From Candidatus Uhrbacteria bacterium (GTDB taxonomy: Bacteria; Patescibacteriota; Patescibacteriia; 2-12-FULL-60-25), in assembly GCA_021413945.1 (NCBI GenBank), contig JAIOPK010000017.1, positions 62,001-126,000 of the forward strand: 64,000 bases of DNA. Reading direction: 5' to 3'. This document shows, piece after piece, positions 18,345 to 61,556 of this stretch (positions are counted from its first letter, which is position 1; each line of letters opens with the position of its first letter). The notes beneath the pieces are model-generated. The model was given only the letters and a program-made list of their open reading frames with translations, did not search any database and had not been told where the DNA came from. The position numbers and the translations under genes are program-made.

Positions 18345-18721
18345 GGAATCAGGCACGAGGGAATCGCAAACGCCCGTATGTGTCGCATTCATTCACAAGT
18401 TCCGAACGTCGGAACAAGAACAGTGCATTGTAGGTTGTAGGACGGCCCCGGGAGGGAAACGGCCCGGACGCTGTCCATGATTCGGACCGTTCTATGCTTG
18501 CGGTTCTGGGTCATGCTGAAAAGCCGGTTGGACAATGTGCGTTACCGGACGAGGAGTGTGGGGTGGGGCGGGCAAAATGACTCTGACTCATCAGTGGTCG
18601 TGCCGCGCCTTGCTCAACACTGGTGCGACGACCACGCGCCTCCCGTTCCGGTCGAGTAACTGCGCCGGGGAGATCCCCGGCCGTGCCCACAATGAGTGTT
18701 TGGCACGGTCGGGAGGTTCCT
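18345..18721 (+). other. long structured leader, no gene seen
   Basis: About 370 nt between promoter and start codon with no convincing reading frame. Hairpins: GTTCCGA-ACG-TCGGAAC at 18399-18415, a GC-rich region at 18438-18478, CCGGGGA/TCCCCGG at 18665-18680, and CCGTGCC/GGCACGG at 18681-18708, which ends 2 nt before the GGGAGG ribosome site. Confidence 0.5.
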
Positions 18722-19597
18722 ATGCGCCGCTGGTTCATCTGGTTTCTGGTCGGTATCAGTTCCATCATTCTCTTTCCGTCGATCGCCGGCTGTGCAAAAG
18801 GCGATCACACGACGCCGCGTCGTCGTGACGGAGGCCTCGATCATCCGATCGATGCCCGCCCGCCCCCAACGTTCGCCGCTGACGCCGCATCTCCGCCGAC
18901 CACGGTCGGAACGGATGCGGGAACACGTTCAGTCGATGCGTTCGTACCGCGAACGCCAACGCGCGAAACATGCAACGGCGTCGACGACGACCTCGACTCG
19001 CATGTCGACGAAGACTTTCTCTGTCCGCTCGGTCGAATGGGGGAGATCTGTGTCACGAGCTGCGGCGTGAACGGCTATCGCGAGTGCGAGGCACCGCTCT
19101 GCTCGTGGAGTACGAGCTGCCACACCTTCGACGAAGTCTGCGGCGATACGCTCGACAACGACTGCAACGGTCTCGTCGACGACGGATGCGCAAGCAACCC
19201 CGGCACCGGCTGGGTCTGCGACGATGCGATGACCCACATTCATCTCGAACCGAATCCGTCGCGCATCGGCCCCTGTGCCGAAGGCTGGACCCTCGTTCTC
19301 TGGGGAGCAGGCGGTGTATCCGAGTCGTATCTCTCGACTCCGGGCGATGCGCTCGACGTCACCATCCGCGACGACTGGCTCGGCTGGGCCGCATTCACCG
19401 CCTACTGCGGCGACTGGAGCGGCGTCCGCGACTGGAGCACATTCGAAGGCCGACTCGCATCGGAAGCCGGTGTCACCATCACCATCGACGGCGTCACCGT
19501 CCCCGTCCAAGTCTGCTACGACCCCGGCGGCTCCCTCATCCGCCCCCTCGTCCCCGTGCAATGCGGCCTTCCCGCCTGTCCTGGACGCACGTACTGA
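18722..19597 (+). CDS. lipoprotein with MopE-type metal-binding motifs
   Basis: 291 residues from the ATG at 18722, chosen for GGGAGG 5 nt upstream; an in-frame start at 18623 lies inside the leader. Signal peptide with lipobox SIAGC (Cys24). A disordered D/A/P-rich linker runs to about 80. Two cysteine/aspartate motifs follow: ETCNGVDDDLDSHVDED near 82-98 and EVCGDTLDNDCNGLVDDGC near 138-156, matching the CNGxDDDCDG type (MopE-like, putative Ca or Cu binding) common in Myxococcota. The remainder is a beta-rich domain with two cysteine pairs. Probably surface exposed. The motif type and the strong Shine-Dalgarno sequence suggest acquisition from outside the core genome. Confidence 0.88.
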   Translation: MRRWFIWFLVGISSIILFPSIAGCAKGDHTTPRRRDGGLDHPIDARPPPTFAADAASPPTTVGTDAGTRSVDAFVPRTPTRETCNGVDDDLDSHVDEDFLCPLGRMGEICVTSCGVNGYRECEAPLCSWSTSCHTFDEVCGDTLDNDCNGLVDDGCASNPGTGWVCDDAMTHIHLEPNPSRIGPCAEGWTLVLWGAGGVSESYLSTPGDALDVTIRDDWLGWAAFTAYCGDWSGVRDWSTFEGRLASEAGVTITIDGVTVPVQVCYDPGGSLIRPLVPVQCGLPACPGRTY

Positions 19598-30595: not shown

Positions 30596-30639
30596 GTTGA
30601 CTCCGTCTGGGTTGGAAGGTTGAAAGTTGTTGTCGCGTG

Positions 30640-30701
30640 CCACACGTTCGATCGAGAACAAAATATTCTCTGCCGAACGTGTGGAACGGGACGTTCCACA
30701 C
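30640..30701 (-). promoter_or_regulatory. switch-like leader of the 202-residue gene
   Basis: Two strong hairpins share the CCACACG segment. One is CGTGTGGAACG/CGTTCCACACG (30678-30702 region). The other is CCACACGTTCG/CGAACGTGTGG with an inner GAGAA/TTCTC stem (30640-30684). Both cannot form at once. The start codon lies about 45 nt further on. Confidence 0.5.
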
Positions 30702-31383
30702 GGGGGTTTGAAAGGTCAATCCGTTTTTTAGGCGGACAGGTGTAAGGAAGAAGGCGGTAAGAACCGAAGTTCGTTCCGCGGTGTGGAGCGCTTGATTCGA
30801 GAGACGCAGATTGCTCCGCCTCTTTCGAGTTAACGTTCCGTCCGTTCGGATGCCCGTGTTCGGGTCCGATCGGGGTTCTTCCATACGCCTGTCAGCCCTG
30901 AGCTCGTCGAAGTATTCCGACGAACGCATTGGAGGTGGATGGTCCGCACTGGTCCGAAGACCGGCAGATCCGAGAAGTCGAGCATTGAGTGGTCCCAGAC
31001 GAATCCGAGTCCACACAACACGCGAGCATCTACTCTGACTTGCGTCAGAGACTCCCTCCTCCAGTGCCTTCGTCCGAAAAAACAAAACAAGACGCTTGGG
31101 GCGTCTCGGTCGGTGCGTTAACAAGACCTCCGCTAGCTTCTAAAAAAAGAAGTAGCAGTCTTAGGTCTCGTCTCAGCTCTCCTTCCAAGACGAATATTAT
31201 TATGTGAAATGCGTTTCCGCAGATCAGACTTCCGACAGAGTCGGAAACCTGAGAGCGGAGCCGAGTGTGTAACCACTGCGGCTCAAGAGAAAAGGAACGG
31301 GTTAGCTTGTTATGTCTTGCGACGGGTCATCTTTGTTGAAAGCCTTGCTCTCAAAGGTGTTGGACCTTCCAACCTCTTCGCGA
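30702..31383 (-). other. non-coding, hairpin-rich spacer
   Basis: No frame here has a ribosome site or protein-like composition. Visible structures on the minus strand: CTCTGAC-GCAA-GTCAGAG at 31028-31047, TTCCGAC-TCT-GTCGGAA near 31228-31244, and the terminator at 31077-31108. A CAGCCCTGAGCTCGTCGAAG sequence at 30894 resembles a dispersed repeat. Confidence 0.5.
31077..31108 (-). terminator. internal terminator in the accessory leader region
   Basis: GAGACGC-CCCAA-GCGTCTTG followed by TTTTGTTTTTT on the minus strand, about 275 bp after the 65-residue gene. Transcripts from the 31.68 kb promoter may end here. Confidence 0.8.
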
Positions 31384-55145: not shown

Positions 55146-55242
55146 TTAGCCAATGGCTAACCTTAGCGATGTCTGTTCTTTAACAGAATATTGTGTAAAA
55201 AATCGCTAACATTCGTCAGTAATCTAAGCTAACCTTAGCCAA
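55146..55242. promoter_or_regulatory. TTAGCCAA operator-like array
   Basis: Palindrome TTAGCCA-A-TGGCTAA at 55146-55160, a CTTAGCGA...TCGCTAA pair at 55162 and 55203, and TTAGCCAA at 55235. Same motif as at 31.67-31.89 kb, and again directly upstream of a strong promoter. Confidence 0.6.
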
Positions 55243-55260: not shown

Positions 55261-55289
55261 TTGACAAAAAGGACTATTTGTGCTATATT
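55261..55289 (+). promoter_or_regulatory. strong promoter of the envelope operon (twin of 31.66 kb)
   Basis: TTGACA, a 17-bp spacer ending TGTGC, then TATATT. It shares TTGACAAAA, TGTGCTATA and downstream TGGT with the leftward promoter at 31657-31685. Confidence 0.85.
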
Positions 55290-55374
55290 ATATGGTCAGT
55301 AAAGGAATGGGTTGGTCGCCATTTCACAATAAAAGACTCAAGCCAGTCCGCGACCACGGGATGGTTTTAGTCTG

Positions 55375-55398
55375 TCCATGACCAAATTCGGTCGTGGA
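55375..55398 (+). promoter_or_regulatory. leader hairpin of the CATGAC/GTCGTG type
   Basis: TCCATGACC-AAATTC-GGTCGTGGA, nine pairs including a G-U, 25 nt before the start codon of the first operon gene. Confidence 0.55.
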
Positions 55399-55422
55399 TA
55401 AGAGAACTTGGAGAAGAACGGA

Positions 55423-55635
55423 ATGCTCATCATCGCGTATTGCATGATCGCACTCGGCGCCTGCCTCGCAGTCTTCGGACTCATAACGCTCAGAAAATAC
55501 CTTGCTCCGACATCGGAAAAGCGCGAGAGACTCATCCGTCGTGGTCCTTGGACGTACATCCTCGGAACCGTGTCCTTCGTTTCAGGGCTTCTGACCGGTC
55601 TTGCGGGCTTGTTGCTTCTCTATATCTATCGTTGA
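55423..55635 (+). CDS. small two-span membrane protein
   Basis: 70 residues from the ATG at 55423 with GGAG nine bases upstream; a TTG at 55408 is in frame but overlaps that site. Two hydrophobic helices (MLIIAYCMIALGACLAVFGL; ILGTVSFVSGLLTGLAGLLL) with a basic loop between (KRERLIRRGPW), so a hairpin in the membrane. First gene of the envelope operon. Unrecognised. Confidence 0.75.
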   Translation: MLIIAYCMIALGACLAVFGLITLRKYLAPTSEKRERLIRRGPWTYILGTVSFVSGLLTGLAGLLLLYIYR

Positions 55636-55671
55636 TTCTTCAACGTTCTTTCCCAGAGGACTGTCTCCGAC

Positions 55672-56190
55672 ATGCACAGCTTTCATCGTGCACTGTCGGA
55701 TCTCCCCTTGGCTCCACGACACTCTCGTCGCGGACCTAAGCCGGAGGCAATCAATTTGTTCAACCCCCACGCACGTCGTCCCGTCGATCTCACTGCGTAC
55801 CGCAACCGCCGCGTGGTCCGCAGCGTTCCCACGCCCGCGCCGCAGAAGCGCAACGACAAGCTCGTCGTGCTCCGCGCACGCCGGCTCGACGCGGTGATCG
55901 CGTACCTGCTGCTCGCGGTCGTCACGGCTTCGATCGGGTTCGGTCTCTGCGTGAACGCGATCTACGTGATCGCGCCGCGCACGCCCGACTTGCTCCCCGT
56001 GAGCATGGTCCTGATCCTCGGCGCGATGTTCATCGCCTTCGGCATCCGCTTCCTCCGCAAGGCCCGCGCCGCGTGGAAGGAGTGCGACGCATTCGACGAC
56101 AAGCTCGAGCGCCAGCGCAAGTCGCTCGCAAACGTCATCCAACCGGTCGAGCGCAAGCTCCCGCTCCCGTTCCACGACTGGATGCATTGA
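55672..56190 (+). CDS. membrane protein, two spans
   Basis: 172 residues: a basic 70-residue cytoplasmic N-terminus (RRLDAVIAYL precedes the first span), two spans at about 75-95 (LLLAVVTASIGFGLCVNAIY) and 108-125 (LPVSMVLILGAMFIAFGIRF), and a charged C-terminal helix. AGAGGA lies about 11 nt before the ATG. No family recognised; may pair with the preceding membrane protein. Confidence 0.72.
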   Translation: MHSFHRALSDLPLAPRHSRRGPKPEAINLFNPHARRPVDLTAYRNRRVVRSVPTPAPQKRNDKLVVLRARRLDAVIAYLLLAVVTASIGFGLCVNAIYVIAPRTPDLLPVSMVLILGAMFIAFGIRFLRKARAAWKECDAFDDKLERQRKSLANVIQPVERKLPLPFHDWMH

Positions 56191-56246
56191 TGCACTAACG
56201 GTCTACCCATGGACCGAAACAAAAACTTCCCATGGGCTTTCTCTTG

Positions 56247-56269
56247 GATCTGCGACTCTGTCGTGGATC
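56247..56269 (+). promoter_or_regulatory. leader hairpin of the CATGAC/GTCGTG type
   Basis: GATCTGCGAC-TCT-GTCGTGGATC, ten pairs with two wobbles, about 40 nt before the lipoprotein start. The right arm is identical to that at 59112. Confidence 0.5.
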
Positions 56270-56308
56270 AATGATGAAAGACAGAAACAATCAACCTGAG
56301 GTGAGTAG

Positions 56309-57706
56309 ATGAAGAATCTTTCCGGTCTGATGTTCGCACTCGTCGCCTTCGTGGCGATGAACGGCTGTACCACCATCACGCTCGTCTTCGGCGGAAGCGA
56401 TTCCGATCCGAGGCCGATGGCGATGGGAGACGCCGGTGTCCCGATGGGGGATGCCGGTCGAGCTGAGCTCGATGCCGGTCCGATGCTCCACGACGACGCC
56501 GGCCCCGTGCCGACACCCGACGCCGGCCCCGCGCCGACGCCCGATGCCGGCACCGACAGCGGTCCCGTCGTCACGGTCGACAGCGGCACGGAGAGCTCGG
56601 CGGTCATCGTTGAGCCCTACGGCATGCGCGAGTCGACGATCCTCGTCGGCGACGGCGGTGCGGTCTGGCACATGGTCTCGGGTTACCGATTCCATGCTGT
56701 CGACGGCTCCATCGCCTCGCTCGACGGTGTCGACGTCATCCTCGACGGCGATGCCGCGAACATCAACATGGTCGCGATCGCTTCCGAAGGAGTCGTCCAC
56801 GGATCGGATATCTTTCCGTCCGGTGTCGGCTCGACGCGTCGCATCGACACGAGCGGTTCGCCCATCAGCGCCGGATCGGATGGCTACGGCTATTTCCAGA
56901 TCTGGGTGAAGGTCGCGAACGTCCAGTCCAGCGCTTCCGTCAGCGGAGCGACGACGGGCGTCTGCAACTCCGGCGATCGCTTCCGTGTCGGCGCTTACAA
57001 CGTCGATTATCACCTCGGAAGCGTGGTCGCGGGCACGTCCTTCGACACCATCTACGGCAACGAGTTCCAGATCCGGAAGACGCGCCCGACGGTCACACGT
57101 CTGTCGCTCTCGACGACGACACTCTCGAACGGCACGGATCAGGACCTCTACCGGTTCCAGGTCAGTGCCGATGCCGCGGGCTCGATCGGGATCCACTCGA
57201 TCTCCTTCGACGTCAGCGGTACGGGCGTGACTCTCTCGAACTTCCGACTGCGGAAGGGCTCGACGGAAATGTCGCTCACCGATTGCCTGATCGTCGACGA
57301 GACGGCGGCGAATCTCTCCGGAGGCTCGCTGGTCGTCGATCCGACGGACACGCATCGCGTGGTGATCTGGTTCCTCAACGAGCAGACGGTCACGGGCAGT
57401 GGCAACGTCTACACGCTGCACGCAACGCCGAGCGGTGTGGTAGCGGGGGACAGCGTCTCCTTCAACTTCCATCGCACGTCGACGGGCGCAACGGGCTACC
57501 TGCTCGACGACCCCATTCACTCCGCGCTCGACACGAGCGCATGGGGCTCACCCAGAACGGGAACGGTGATCGCGGCCGGATTCATCTGGTCCGATTTCTC
57601 GGAGGTCCCGCACTCGGACTTCTACGGAGTCGGCGGCGGCTCGCGCGACTGGACCGACGGCCTCTACATCGAGGACCTCACCCAGACGCAAACGCTGTCG
57701 CGCTAG
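56309..57706 (+). CDS. surface lipoprotein with DAG-rich linker
   Basis: 465 residues. Signal peptide with lipobox AMNGC (Cys20); linker of repeated DAG units (about 40-90) like those of myxobacterial lipoproteins; then two beta-rich domains with the pattern FRVGAYNVDYHLG and RLSLSTTTLSNGTDQDLYRF. The C-terminus reads FIWSDFSEVPHSDFYGVGGG then SRDWTDGLYIEDL, close to the WSD...HS...DWTNGY ending I know from Patescibacterial secreted proteins. GAGG precedes the ATG. Probably exposed on the cell surface, and likely the main product of the operon. Confidence 0.85.
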   Translation: MKNLSGLMFALVAFVAMNGCTTITLVFGGSDSDPRPMAMGDAGVPMGDAGRAELDAGPMLHDDAGPVPTPDAGPAPTPDAGTDSGPVVTVDSGTESSAVIVEPYGMRESTILVGDGGAVWHMVSGYRFHAVDGSIASLDGVDVILDGDAANINMVAIASEGVVHGSDIFPSGVGSTRRIDTSGSPISAGSDGYGYFQIWVKVANVQSSASVSGATTGVCNSGDRFRVGAYNVDYHLGSVVAGTSFDTIYGNEFQIRKTRPTVTRLSLSTTTLSNGTDQDLYRFQVSADAAGSIGIHSISFDVSGTGVTLSNFRLRKGSTEMSLTDCLIVDETAANLSGGSLVVDPTDTHRVVIWFLNEQTVTGSGNVYTLHATPSGVVAGDSVSFNFHRTSTGATGYLLDDPIHSALDTSAWGSPRTGTVIAAGFIWSDFSEVPHSDFYGVGGGSRDWTDGLYIEDLTQTQTLSR

Positions 57707-57746
57707 TCGCACCTTCGCTCGCAAGAGCATCTCTGGATCGAGCCGC

Positions 57747-57822
57747 ACCGTTGTTCACTCAACGGTCGGCTCTCCTCTCCGCCTTCTGACAAACCAACAC
57801 CAACGTTGGAGTCGGAGGCCGA
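57747..57822 (+). ncRNA. intercistronic hairpin module a
   Basis: ACCGTTG-TTCACT-CAACGGT, then TCGGC/GCCGA enclosing TTCTGAC/GTCGGAG. Ends 3 nt before the ATGGAGG ribosome site. Confidence 0.5.
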
Positions 57823-57835
57823 AGATGGAGGGTTA

Positions 57836-58432
57836 ATGGAATACTTTCAGCTCGCGCAATACGTCTTCATCGGCATCGCGTTGATCGTTCTGCTCGTCCG
57901 CGCGTTCAGCATTCGCGAACGCATCGGGACAGTCACCGATGCACGGGAGGCGCTTCGCACGACCGCGCTGGAAGTCGCGCTCCTTCAGCAGGGCCTCCGC
58001 AAGGAGAAGATGACGGCTACGTCATTGGACCGCCTCCTCCTGCTCAAGAGCGCGCAGCGTCACGTGCAGACGGTGGTGGACGACATCGGATCGACCGGCT
58101 CCAACTGGCGTCTCGATCTGTTCGGGCTGGTAGTCATCGTGGACATCATCATCGATCTCTTCGGAGTCGCGGTGATGCTCATGTTCTCAGCCGTGCTTCT
58201 CGAGGCGTTTACGTTCAACATCGACGTTCTGCGCATCCTCCTCGGCGTGCAGATCCTCGGTAGTCTGGTGTTCCCGTACATTCTCAAGAAGCTCTCGAGA
58301 GTCTGCGACAGCTTCTTGTTCGTACTCGACCTGAAGACTCACATGGCCGAATCGATCCTGCATGACACGCTGCCAAAGCACGTCGCCGACACGCTACTGA
58401 GGGCCGAGCGCGGTAGCCGGATCTCTGGCTGA
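57836..58432 (+). CDS. membrane protein with central double span
   Basis: 198 residues from the ATG four bases after GGAGG. N-terminal span (YVFIGIALIVLLVRAF), a helical cytoplasmic segment, two spans near 100-155 (LDLFGLVVIVDIIIDLFGVA; ILLGVQILGSLVFPYILKKL), and an amphipathic end. No known family. Confidence 0.75.
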   Translation: MEYFQLAQYVFIGIALIVLLVRAFSIRERIGTVTDAREALRTTALEVALLQQGLRKEKMTATSLDRLLLLKSAQRHVQTVVDDIGSTGSNWRLDLFGLVVIVDIIIDLFGVAVMLMFSAVLLEAFTFNIDVLRILLGVQILGSLVFPYILKKLSRVCDSFLFVLDLKTHMAESILHDTLPKHVADTLLRAERGSRISG

Positions 58433-58457
58433 TCAAGTCGTTCTTTCCCTGGAGTCC

Positions 58458-58520
58458 GACCTGTTGTTCACTCAACGGTCGGCTCTCCCTTCGTCCCGCT
58501 AACCCATCCCGGGTCGGCGG
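58458..58520 (+). ncRNA. intercistronic hairpin module b
   Basis: GACCTGTTG-TTCACT-CAACGGTC, then CCGCTAACC/GGTCGGCGG (eight of nine pairs). Same position relative to the next ribosome site as modules a and d. Confidence 0.45.
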
Positions 58521-58542
58521 TACGAGAAGGAGTGAGTGCAGA

Positions 58543-59025
58543 ATGAAGCTGATCCTTTCCGTCCTGTTCCTGTCCGCGTTCGTGATCGTCGGCTGTGCGG
58601 GCGCGGAGCCCGTCGCTTCCGAGGAGGCATCGCTCGTGACCTACACCGTCACGTTCGACGTCGCCGAGATCGAGACGCACGCGATCCGCATCATGCGCTG
58701 TGACGAGGTCACCGGCATGTGCGAGATCGACGAGCCCGAGGGCTGCCGCTACGTCGATACCGAGGGCGTCACGGGCCACCTCTGCGACTTCACCGTCGCC
58801 GAGGACGAGACGCTGGCCTTCAACGTCCAGCTCGACTCCGCCTTCGCCTGCGCGATCGACGACGCCGAGTGCGCACGCCTCGGCTCCGTCCACGTCTTCC
58901 GCGACGGCGAACCCGTCGCCCACGTCCGCGACGTCCACGGGGAGTTCTGCAACTTCCTCATCACCTCCCGTTCCCCCGCAGGCCCTGAGCCTGTCGAAGG
59001 GGCCGTCGATCTCGACGGCATCTAG
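58543..59025 (+). CDS. cysteine-containing lipoprotein
   Basis: 160 residues. Signal peptide and lipobox VIVGC (Cys18); acidic beta-rich body with three cysteine pairs (RCDEVTGMCEIDEPEGCRY; LCDF; FACAIDDAECARL). AAGGAG before the ATG. The C-terminus PAGPEPVEG is the translation of a widespread dispersed DNA palindrome, so the original end may have been altered by repeat insertion. Confidence 0.8.
   Translation: MKLILSVLFLSAFVIVGCAGAEPVASEEASLVTYTVTFDVAEIETHAIRIMRCDEVTGMCEIDEPEGCRYVDTEGVTGHLCDFTVAEDETLAFNVQLDSAFACAIDDAECARLGSVHVFRDGEPVAHVRDVHGEFCNFLITSRSPAGPEPVEGAVDLDGI
58981..59004. repeat. dispersed palindrome CCCTGAGCCTGTCGAAGGG
   Basis: Lies in frame at the 3' end of the lipoprotein gene. 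It matches the CCTTCGACAGGCTCAGG element familiar from many unrelated bacteria. Confidence 0.6.
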
Positions 59026-59041
59026 GGCTACCAGAGCCCGA

Positions 59042-59121
59042 GGTCCGGATCCGTTGTTCTCAACGGGTCCGACCTCCTTCTCAGATTCATGACCCCGCTA
59101 AAGTGGCGGACGTCGTGGATC
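59042..59121 (+). ncRNA. intercistronic hairpin module c
   Basis: GGATCCGTTG-TTCT-CAACGGGTCC, then GATTCATGAC/GTCGTGGATC (ten pairs) around CCGC/GCGG, five bases before GATGGAGG. Confidence 0.55.
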
Positions 59122-59152
59122 GCAGATGGAGGACAATATTAGGACAAACCCA

Positions 59153-59773
59153 ATGTTGGCGTCGTCGATTTATCAGCTCTCCGGCCCGCGCAACCTCCGG
59201 GTTGTGCTCTCGCCGCAAGAGGTCGACGGCATTCAATCCTTCTTCGTAGGAATCTGCCGCATTTGTACTCCGGGTGAAGCCGTGGCGTACAAGCAGGAGT
59301 CCTACGATGGGATCAACATCTACGCCTGGGTCGAGAGGAAAGTGACTCTCGCAGACGTTTCGTCGCGCGGAGACCTCATCTGCGAGGTCCGCCGGCGGAT
59401 TTTCTCCGAATCAGGTCTTCCGCACGTCGTCTCCATGCCGGAGCTCAGGTTCGAGGAAGCCGGTCCGCAGACAGGTTCACGCCAAGATCGGGCGTACTTC
59501 ATGCAGTGCGTGCTTCACTCTCCCGAACCGGAAGAGCCGGATCGCGAACTGTTCGACATCGGTCGCCTGATCGATCTCCCGCCAGACGGCTATCCGCTAA
59601 GCGAAACGCCGGTGGAGACCCTCCGCAACATTCTGGTGAAGCGAGACCCCGGGTCTCACAACAGGCAGTGGGCGTGGCAACAGCGCATGCTCCTCCTCAA
59701 GGATGCCGCAGAAGAGAGACACGCTAACCGCGTTCTCGACAATGAGTGGTTGTCCAATAGGCCAGCCGCTTAA
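59153..59773 (+). CDS. hypothetical protein
   Basis: 206 residues from the ATG at 59153 (AGGA eight bases upstream). An earlier in-frame ATG at 59126 overlaps the GGAGG site, and an ATT at 59138 sits at ideal spacing, so the start is uncertain. Mixed alpha/beta (NLRVVLSPQEVDGIQSFFVG; RGDLICEVRRRIFSESG), no signal or span, so it is the one apparently cytoplasmic product of this operon. Unrecognised; a Nudix-like fold was considered but the Nudix box is absent. Confidence 0.68.
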   Translation: MLASSIYQLSGPRNLRVVLSPQEVDGIQSFFVGICRICTPGEAVAYKQESYDGINIYAWVERKVTLADVSSRGDLICEVRRRIFSESGLPHVVSMPELRFEEAGPQTGSRQDRAYFMQCVLHSPEPEEPDRELFDIGRLIDLPPDGYPLSETPVETLRNILVKRDPGSHNRQWAWQQRMLLLKDAAEERHANRVLDNEWLSNRPAA

Positions 59774-59789
59774 CACTCTGGAAGGCCGC

Positions 59790-59850
59790 ACCGTTGTTCA
59801 CTCAACGGTCGGCTCTCCTCTCCGCCTGCCGACAACGTGTCGGCGGCCGA
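59790..59850 (+). ncRNA. intercistronic hairpin module d
   Basis: ACCGTTG-TTCACT-CAACGGT, then TCGGC/GCCGA enclosing GCCGACA-ACG-TGTCGGC, three bases before ATGGAG. Shares 35 bases with module a but the inner stem differs on both sides. Confidence 0.55.
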
Positions 59851-59863
59851 AGATGGAGAAAAA

Positions 59864-60313
59864 ATGAATCGAGTCACGTACCTGTTCGTGTTCGTCATCA
59901 TGCTCGGTGCATCGTCGGCGTCGACGGCATCGGCGCAGTACGACGCTTACATCCGTGAAGCGTCAGTACTCTACAGTCTCCCGGAAGCCTTCATCCGCGC
60001 GGTCATCCGCACGGAGAGCAACTTCCACCCGACATCCCGATCGAGCGCCGGTGCCGTCGGTCTCATGCAGCTCATGCCGGCAACGGCCCGCAGCATGGGC
60101 GTCACCGACCGCTACGATCCGTACCAAAGCATCATGGGAGGTTGCCGCTACCTGCGTCTCCTCGCCAATCGCTACGGCGGAAACCTCGCCCTCACGCTCG
60201 CGGCCTACAACGCCGGTCCCGGCTCGATCATCCGCGCCGGCGGATTTCCCCCGAGCGTCACCGGCTACGTAAACGCGGTCCTACGTCACTACCGCAGTTA
60301 CGCCGGGCGCTAG
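59864..60313 (+). CDS. secreted lytic transglycosylase (SLT domain)
   Basis: 149 residues from the ATG at 59864. Signal peptide cleaved near SASTASAQ. The rest is one SLT domain: IRAVIRTESNFHPTSRSSAG with the catalytic Glu, AVGLMQLMPATARSMG, and LTLAAYNAGPGSIIRAGG. Cleaves peptidoglycan glycan strands outside the membrane. In an operon with lipoproteins and membrane proteins, it suggests a device that must cross or remodel the wall. GGAG precedes the ATG. Confidence 0.93.
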   Translation: MNRVTYLFVFVIMLGASSASTASAQYDAYIREASVLYSLPEAFIRAVIRTESNFHPTSRSSAGAVGLMQLMPATARSMGVTDRYDPYQSIMGGCRYLRLLANRYGGNLALTLAAYNAGPGSIIRAGGFPPSVTGYVNAVLRHYRSYAGR

Positions 60314-60368
60314 ATTGCAACAGAACCCGGCAACATCTAGGGTCGCCCTGACCCTTCCTGAGGCCCGA

Positions 60369-60439
60369 ACCGTTGTTCACTCAACGGTCCGGCCTCCTCT
60401 CAGATTCATGACCCGCCATGGTGGCGCCAGTCGTGAATC
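60369..60439 (+). ncRNA. intercistronic hairpin module e
   Basis: ACCGTTG-TTCACT-CAACGGT, then GATTCATGAC/GTCGTGAATC around CGCCA-TGG-TGGCG. The right arm changes one G-U of module c to A-U. Confidence 0.55.
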
Positions 60440-60455
60440 GCAGATGGAGGTTTGC

Positions 60456-61460: not shown

Positions 61461-61467
61461 CACGCTG

Positions 61468-61501
61468 AAACGCCGTCCTGATTCACTTCAGGACGGCGTT
61501 T
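61468..61501 (+). terminator. terminator of the envelope operon
   Basis: AAACGCCGTCCTG/CAGGACGGCGTTT stem, then CTCATTTCT. Confidence 0.88.
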
Positions 61502-61556
61502 CTCATTTCTATCGACACACCTTGCCCTCCGGCCCAACCTAGGCCAACATGTTTCT

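Follow-up and report, generated by a model that had tools for sequence, protein, structure and literature searches.

All eight genes of a plus-strand operon (operon 1) are preceded by a leader made of two adjacent hairpins, HP1 and HP2, as revealed by folding every intergenic region between 55.3 and 61.5 kb of the window (the whole 64,000-nucleotide stretch analysed, G000:C12:62001-126000, from a 1.05 Mb genome). The same module recurs at almost every gene, compensatory changes preserve it although the letters differ, and other families of Patescibacteria have it as well; it has the look of an RNA family, hitherto undescribed, that sets apart the genes carried on one message. We reason (the whole analysis resting on sequence and folding energies) that it may be a cis-acting, conserved intergenic RNA module that punctuates the polycistronic message and renders the translation of each gene conditional, a reading to which we give a probability of roughly 55%.

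Operon 1 is flanked by a divergent pfkB-type kinase gene on one side and by a DUF2207 gene (also found downstream in G014) on the other, and lies behind a sigma-70-like promoter (TTGACA...TATATT, 55262-55292, plus strand) that resembles promoters in Candidatus Uhrbacteria isolate SJ877 (G002, same genus as G000) and in G011. Gene 7 is the only one of the eight with a firm family (SLT transglycosylase, E 4e-28), and the products of genes 3 and 5 resemble secreted lipoproteins. The leaders (81-145 nt) directly follow the previous stop codon, and many of them have a polypyrimidine tract 5' of HP1. HP1 is situated just 3' of the preceding stop (starting 10-47 nt past it for genes 4-8), often with the loop UUCACU, and HP2 begins at the final bases of HP1. 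In genes 2 and 4-8, HP2 terminates in the Shine-Dalgarno sequence (SD), and most leaders have CUCC:GGAG as the closing helix across the SD. The 95-nt regions upstream of the genes at 57836, 58543, 59153, 59864 and 60456 had fold z-scores of -3.5 to -6.2, whereas most of the remaining genes in the window were near -0.5.

The individual copies (all on the plus strand; gene starts are our own calls, including the probable ATT of gene 6) are arranged as follows. Gene 1 has HP1 at 55334-55373 and HP2 at 55374-55399 (arms TCCATGACC/GGTCGTGGA), with its SD (GGAG, 55410) outside HP2. The gene 2 leader consists of HP1 (55666-55700) and HP2 (55702-55747; E 2e-7 with the covariance model R1), the latter closing CTCC:GGAG over the SD ahead of a TTG start at 55756. 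Gene 3 resembles gene 1 in that its SD (GAGG, 56298) lies outside HP2 (56237-56280, closing CTTTC:GAAAG, E 0.02 with the later model R2), which follows HP1 at 56206-56236. The folds and the arm-swap test described below support the leaders of gene 4 (HP1 57740-57772, loop TTCACT; HP2 57772-57831 over SD GGAGG; ATG 57836) and gene 5 (HP1 58451-58486, loop TTCACT; HP2 58485-58533 over SD GGAG; ATG 58543); the arm swap likewise supports HP1 of gene 6 (59040-59076), whose HP2 (59074-59132) covers GGAGG. The start of gene 6 is probably the ATT at 59138, 5 nt past GGAGG, as the ATG of the listed open reading frame (59126) overlaps the SD. The last two leaders, those of gene 7 (lytic transglycosylase; HP1 59784-59814, loop TTCACT; HP2 59815-59859 over SD GGAG; ATG 59864; R1 E 1e-16) and gene 8 (HP1 60360-60396, loop TTCACT; HP2 60394-60450 over SD GGAGG; ATG 60456; R1 E 2e-8), are followed past the end of gene 8 by a terminator-like hairpin with a partial T-run (61467-61502), which has the loop TTCACT as in HP1. 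UUCACU is flanked by a stem of at least 6 in 8 of its 31 occurrences (background 2.5%), and seven of these eight loops belong to operons 1 and 2, among them that of the hairpin past gene 8; the sharing of this loop ties HP1 to the 3' ends of genes, to which it seems to belong.

A sequence-only reading of this DNA had described a helix with a shared right arm before at least four of the genes. These four helices exist by sequence and fold at 55374-55399 (HP2 of gene 1), 56247-56269 (inside HP2 of gene 3, arms GATCTGCGAC/GTCGTGGATC), 59083-59121 (inside HP2 of gene 6, arms GATTCATGAC/GTCGTGGATC) and 60402-60439 (inside HP2 of gene 8, arms GATTCATGAC/GTCGTGAATC), which confirms the observation; they are nevertheless half the picture, since the two-hairpin module precedes all eight genes and in genes 2, 4, 5 and 7 is written in letters other than that right arm. 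The arm itself is present, but as a stand-alone signal it is not clearly above chance and was discarded (allowing one mismatch, GTCGTGRATC is found 22 times in the window, where 14.7 +/- 4.1 would be expected, and GTCGTGRA turns up elsewhere too); what carries the signal is the structure. The helix had also been placed 10-40 nt upstream of the ribosome site, which does not hold at 59084 and 60403, where the SD lies inside HP2 (likewise for genes 2, 4, 5 and 7).

That pairing is maintained in spite of differing arms, as the same reading had proposed, is borne out by covariation. In the alignment behind R1 (a covariance model of HP2 built on 15 sequences), 94% of the cells were paired, against 83 +/- 1 in shuffles, and the covariation score was 0.319 (0.137 +/- 0.018 shuffled). 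The larger HP2 set A4 (24 distinct leaders, fitted to the model) scored 0.373, whereas shuffles gave 0.163 +/- 0.015 and slid versions no more than 0.136; there were 44 doubly changed cells versus 13 and up to five standard pair types at a single position. As A4 was model-fitted and paralogous copies have a common ancestry, an alignment-free test was added, in which the 3' arms were exchanged among 24 leaders (2000 permutations). Each of these 24 leaders forms both hairpins, and their mean stabilities with their own arms (HP1, -18.7 kcal/mol; HP2, -24.2 kcal/mol) dropped to -10.3 and -16.5 kcal/mol, respectively, after swapping, none of the 2000 permutations reaching the real value in either case. 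We stress that the column-wise counts concern HP2, and that HP1 is supported by the arm swap. HP2 emerges as a long helix with conserved internal mismatches in which the pairing of SD and anti-SD is kept in 24 of 24 distinct A4 rows (CTCC:GGAG also in all A3 leaders); the inner pairs of CUCC:GGAG are invariant, and in G247 a differing SD comes with a differing partner (CCTTTTC with GAAGG).

The orthologous operon of G002 was located through a homologue of gene 8 (35% identity); at least 15 genes of this operon have a two-hairpin leader. The commonest G002 leader reads GAG-stem-(UUCACU or CACACUU)-stem-CUC in its 5' part and CUCUCCGCC-stem-loop-stem-GGCCGAAGNUGGAGG in its 3' part, followed by 4-6 nt and the start codon. 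As HP1 and HP2 types occur in differing combinations, the modules reassort, and orthologous genes may differ strongly in leader letters (gene 5: W5 vs X7). The transglycosylase gene has a leader in G000 and none in G002, where it sits close behind its neighbour. In G002, genes that closely follow or overlap the previous one, namely this gene (L133:4731) and a small open reading frame (L133:9515), lack the module, in keeping with the punctuation reading. The G011 operon has three genes and two module copies and is likewise flanked by pfkB and DUF2207; in the other family genomes that were fetched the pfkB-DUF2207 neighbourhood is mostly without such an operon.

Outside the training loci, R1 matched three sites in G002 (C3, contig JADZFU010000003.1: 135445-, 161901+ and 36418-) and two in G011 (C8: 20763- and 19897-), and each of the five matches ends where a same-strand open reading frame has its SD and start codon, with HP1 preceding. 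A further R1 match at window 10114 was dropped, as it lies inside a sliding-clamp-like gene. The model R2, whose training set includes these five matches, added G247 (two adjacent genes clearly and a third weakly, L185:4278, E 0.013), G373, G015, G031, G417 and G527, with matches 0-17 nt 5' of a same-strand open reading frame or overlapping its start codon. Notable matches were thus found in relatives of G000 and in other Patescibacteria families, and 12 of the 14 outside the training loci stand directly before a same-strand open reading frame; the exceptions are window 31208 (non-coding) and a doubtful match in G524, which folds differently and was dropped. Any match at E <= 0.01 was obtained in 7 of 381 genomes at the class level and 6 of 380 at the phylum level. 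The covariance model is clade-specific, and in G014 similar two-hairpin leaders were seen by eye that the model missed. In viral contigs, a stricter leader pattern gave no match, and the 14-base HP1 core GTTGTTCACTCAAC gave single scattered matches that we took as chance. Searches against Rfam 15 returned only tRNAs for the window (no leader match) and, for L133 at E <= 5, a single spurious 22-bit match (cut-off 71).

In the mechanism that we propose, HP1 would act as the 3'-side hairpin of the upstream gene and HP2 as the 5'-side hairpin of the downstream one. The linker between the two hairpins (CCUCCUCUC) imitates the anti-SD tail of the 16S rRNA, CCUCCUUUCU, and in the majority of copies would pair with the SD at the base of HP2. 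The 16S rRNA (ending in ...GGATCACCTCCTTTCT) carries CCTCCTTTCT in its tail; thus, SD pairing is usable and the linker CCTCCTCTC resembles the anti-SD of the ribosome itself. Most internal genes would consequently begin with a strong but masked ribosome site, and the translation of each would require the CUCC:GGAG helix to be opened, the likeliest openers being processing between HP1 and HP2, after which the anti-SD would stay with the upstream fragment, or else a bound factor that would stabilise HP1, which competes for the same CUC through its 5' GAG. In silico, the SD had a predicted unpaired probability of 0.09 (mean of 19 leaders), which became 0.04 with HP1 deleted and 0.23 once the anti-SD was deleted as well. 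The corresponding average for 17 control genes with an SD (starts taken from a simple ORF caller) was 0.26. The lower predicted exposure in the leaders speaks for masking, and that ordinary genes here also have partly paired SDs counts against it. In 17 of the 24 leaders HP1 reaches into the anti-SD, pairing two or more of its bases; this would allow branch migration, although the predicted effect is small; the change from 0.09 to 0.04 upon HP1 removal lends little to a strict two-state HP1/HP2 switch, which we discarded. Since some copies cover no SD (genes 1 and 3, the copy associated with a non-coding RNA at 31217-31284, and G417/G527, where the SD is farther down), masking cannot be the whole function, and HP2 seems to be kept for more than that. 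Punctuation of the message is the model that best fits these copies together with the UUCACU loop of the final hairpin. Hence, of the earlier proposal of a conserved regulatory RNA structure reused within one operon, conservation and reuse stand and the interpretation as a whole is supported, its regulatory part being a role that we infer.

It is possible, if tentatively so, that the module serves mRNA processing and stability alone, with an endonuclease (e.g., RNase III) cutting in or beside HP2, the resulting 3' and 5' ends being shielded by HP1 and HP2, respectively, and the SD pairing incidental. The copies without SD cover, including the one before a non-coding RNA, the HP1-like loop after the last gene and the long, conservedly mismatched helix of HP2 would all agree with this, as would the two full-length RNase III genes of G000 (C12:171321-171974 and C2:463355-464011; most family members have one). 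Against it stand the invariance of the CUCC:GGAG inner pairs and the RNase III copy number, which does not appear to track the module (two in G000, one in G002, none found in G011, a draft that is 95% complete); copy numbers across the family also give no support to the second RNase III as a dedicated processing enzyme. Rather doubtful, in our judgement, is a trans-regulated RNA regulon, in which a lineage-specific protein or small RNA would bind the HP1 loop (UUCACU or NNCACU) and set the SD helix of all regulon genes together. The over-representation of UUCACU in hairpin loops and its concentration in operons 1 and 2, the promoter boxes common to these operons and the polypyrimidine tract before HP1 speak for such a factor, but outside the near relatives the loop letters are not kept (in G247, G373, G417 and G527), and CsrA (PF02599) is absent from G000 (controls positive). 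These two alternatives overlap with conditional translation by punctuation, as processing or a bound factor could itself be the opener of the SD.

The promoter boxes are copies of a palindrome, GCTAANNTTAGC, that leader-bearing operons of G000, G002 and G011 carry at their promoters with no more than a single mismatch (window 31783, 31810, 55156 and 55228; L162:11548-11647; L165:8540 and 8603; L166:11313). Upstream of operon 1 they take the form of operator-like boxes GCTAACCTTAGC (55156 and 55228, spanning 55156-55239), a box that recurs at the promoters of such operons in G002 and G011, and they are probably the operator of a transcription factor. More speculatively, and we consider it unlikely, the whole could constitute a system in Patescibacteria dedicated to punctuating mRNA, in which regulon genes under shared GCTAANNTTAGC promoters would have a UUCACU hairpin at the 3' side and an SD-masking hairpin at the 5' side, cutting between them would remove the anti-SD so that message splitting would be the translation switch, and the module would also mark the start of a large structured RNA.

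A role for HP1 as a leaky intrinsic terminator, or as an attenuator, that grades expression along the operon is improbable: a stable G+C hairpin does occur shortly past the stop codons and pyrimidines follow, but CUCCUCUC after HP1 has only 3 U in 8, there is no direct U-run (CTCCTCTC), and HP2 and the SD pair would be left unexplained. An RNA thermometer opened by warmth is very improbable, for although the SD sits at the foot of an imperfect hairpin, as in ROSE-like elements, its predicted exposure in folding simulations barely rises from 20 to 65 C, no Rfam thermometer matched the window or L133, and the genes include no heat-shock family. Integron-like recombination sites were also set aside: the modules look like cassette joints, but most hold an SD at working distance from the start codon.

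Leaders that mask the SD usually control a single gene or the first gene of an operon. Early mRNA of phage T7 contains intergenic RNase III processing sites, i.e. a hairpin between successive genes of one message, and the module is similar in lying between successive genes, upstream of the next SD; it differs in having two adjacent hairpins with the SD built into the second, in belonging to a cellular operon and in that cleavage is hypothetical here. In adhE-like mRNAs, a masked ribosome site is opened through RNase III before one gene. The ribosome site here is also masked and cleavage (again hypothetical) would expose it, yet the same module stands before each gene of the regulon. In erm-type attenuators, neighbouring hairpins compete for one strand and the SD is masked in one state; HP1 and HP2 can compete similarly, but they mostly co-exist and are repeated per gene. 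ROSE-like leaders are reused before several genes. ROSE and ROSE-like leaders (e.g., PMC3669281) share with the module an imperfect hairpin that has the SD paired at its base; the module departs from them in its extra upstream hairpin, in having neither an Rfam match nor predicted melting, and in its presence at nearly every gene of an operon for surface and secreted proteins. A limited literature search recovered no described cis-regulatory RNA of this two-hairpin kind for Patescibacteria.

To our knowledge, none has been reported for this group, and the module offers a ready covariance model together with testable predictions on gene-by-gene expression within the operons of reduced genomes.

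Operon 2 of G000 (31.8-24 kb, minus strand) has stable intergenic hairpins as well. Between its promoter and its first long gene lies a non-coding, unannotated stretch of approximately 700 nt (window 30600-31300, minus strand), which is conserved in G002 (L165:7530-8240, minus strand; nhmmer E 1.5e-39), has a fold z-score of -10.3 and retains 39 pairs through double changes in a two-sequence consensus; it had no match in Rfam. We regard it as a candidate new large structured RNA, with a two-hairpin module lacking an SD (31217-31284, minus strand) at its 5' side.

Secreted lipoproteins with Asp-Ala-Gly-rich linkers are encoded at window 56309-57706 and 18722-19594, and also in L133 and L164. 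Such proteins seem reminiscent of myxobacterial lipoproteins, and a horizontal origin is possible. In the region 18594-18722 (plus strand), one lipoprotein gene has a stable leader with the SD (GGAGG) within a hairpin, possibly another, diverged copy of the two-hairpin layout, and a weak match to a MopE-like metal-binding motif. Lastly, CCCTGAGCCTGTCGAAGG, at window 58979-59003 and close to the 3' end of gene 5, resembles a short palindromic repeat that occurs in many bacteria.
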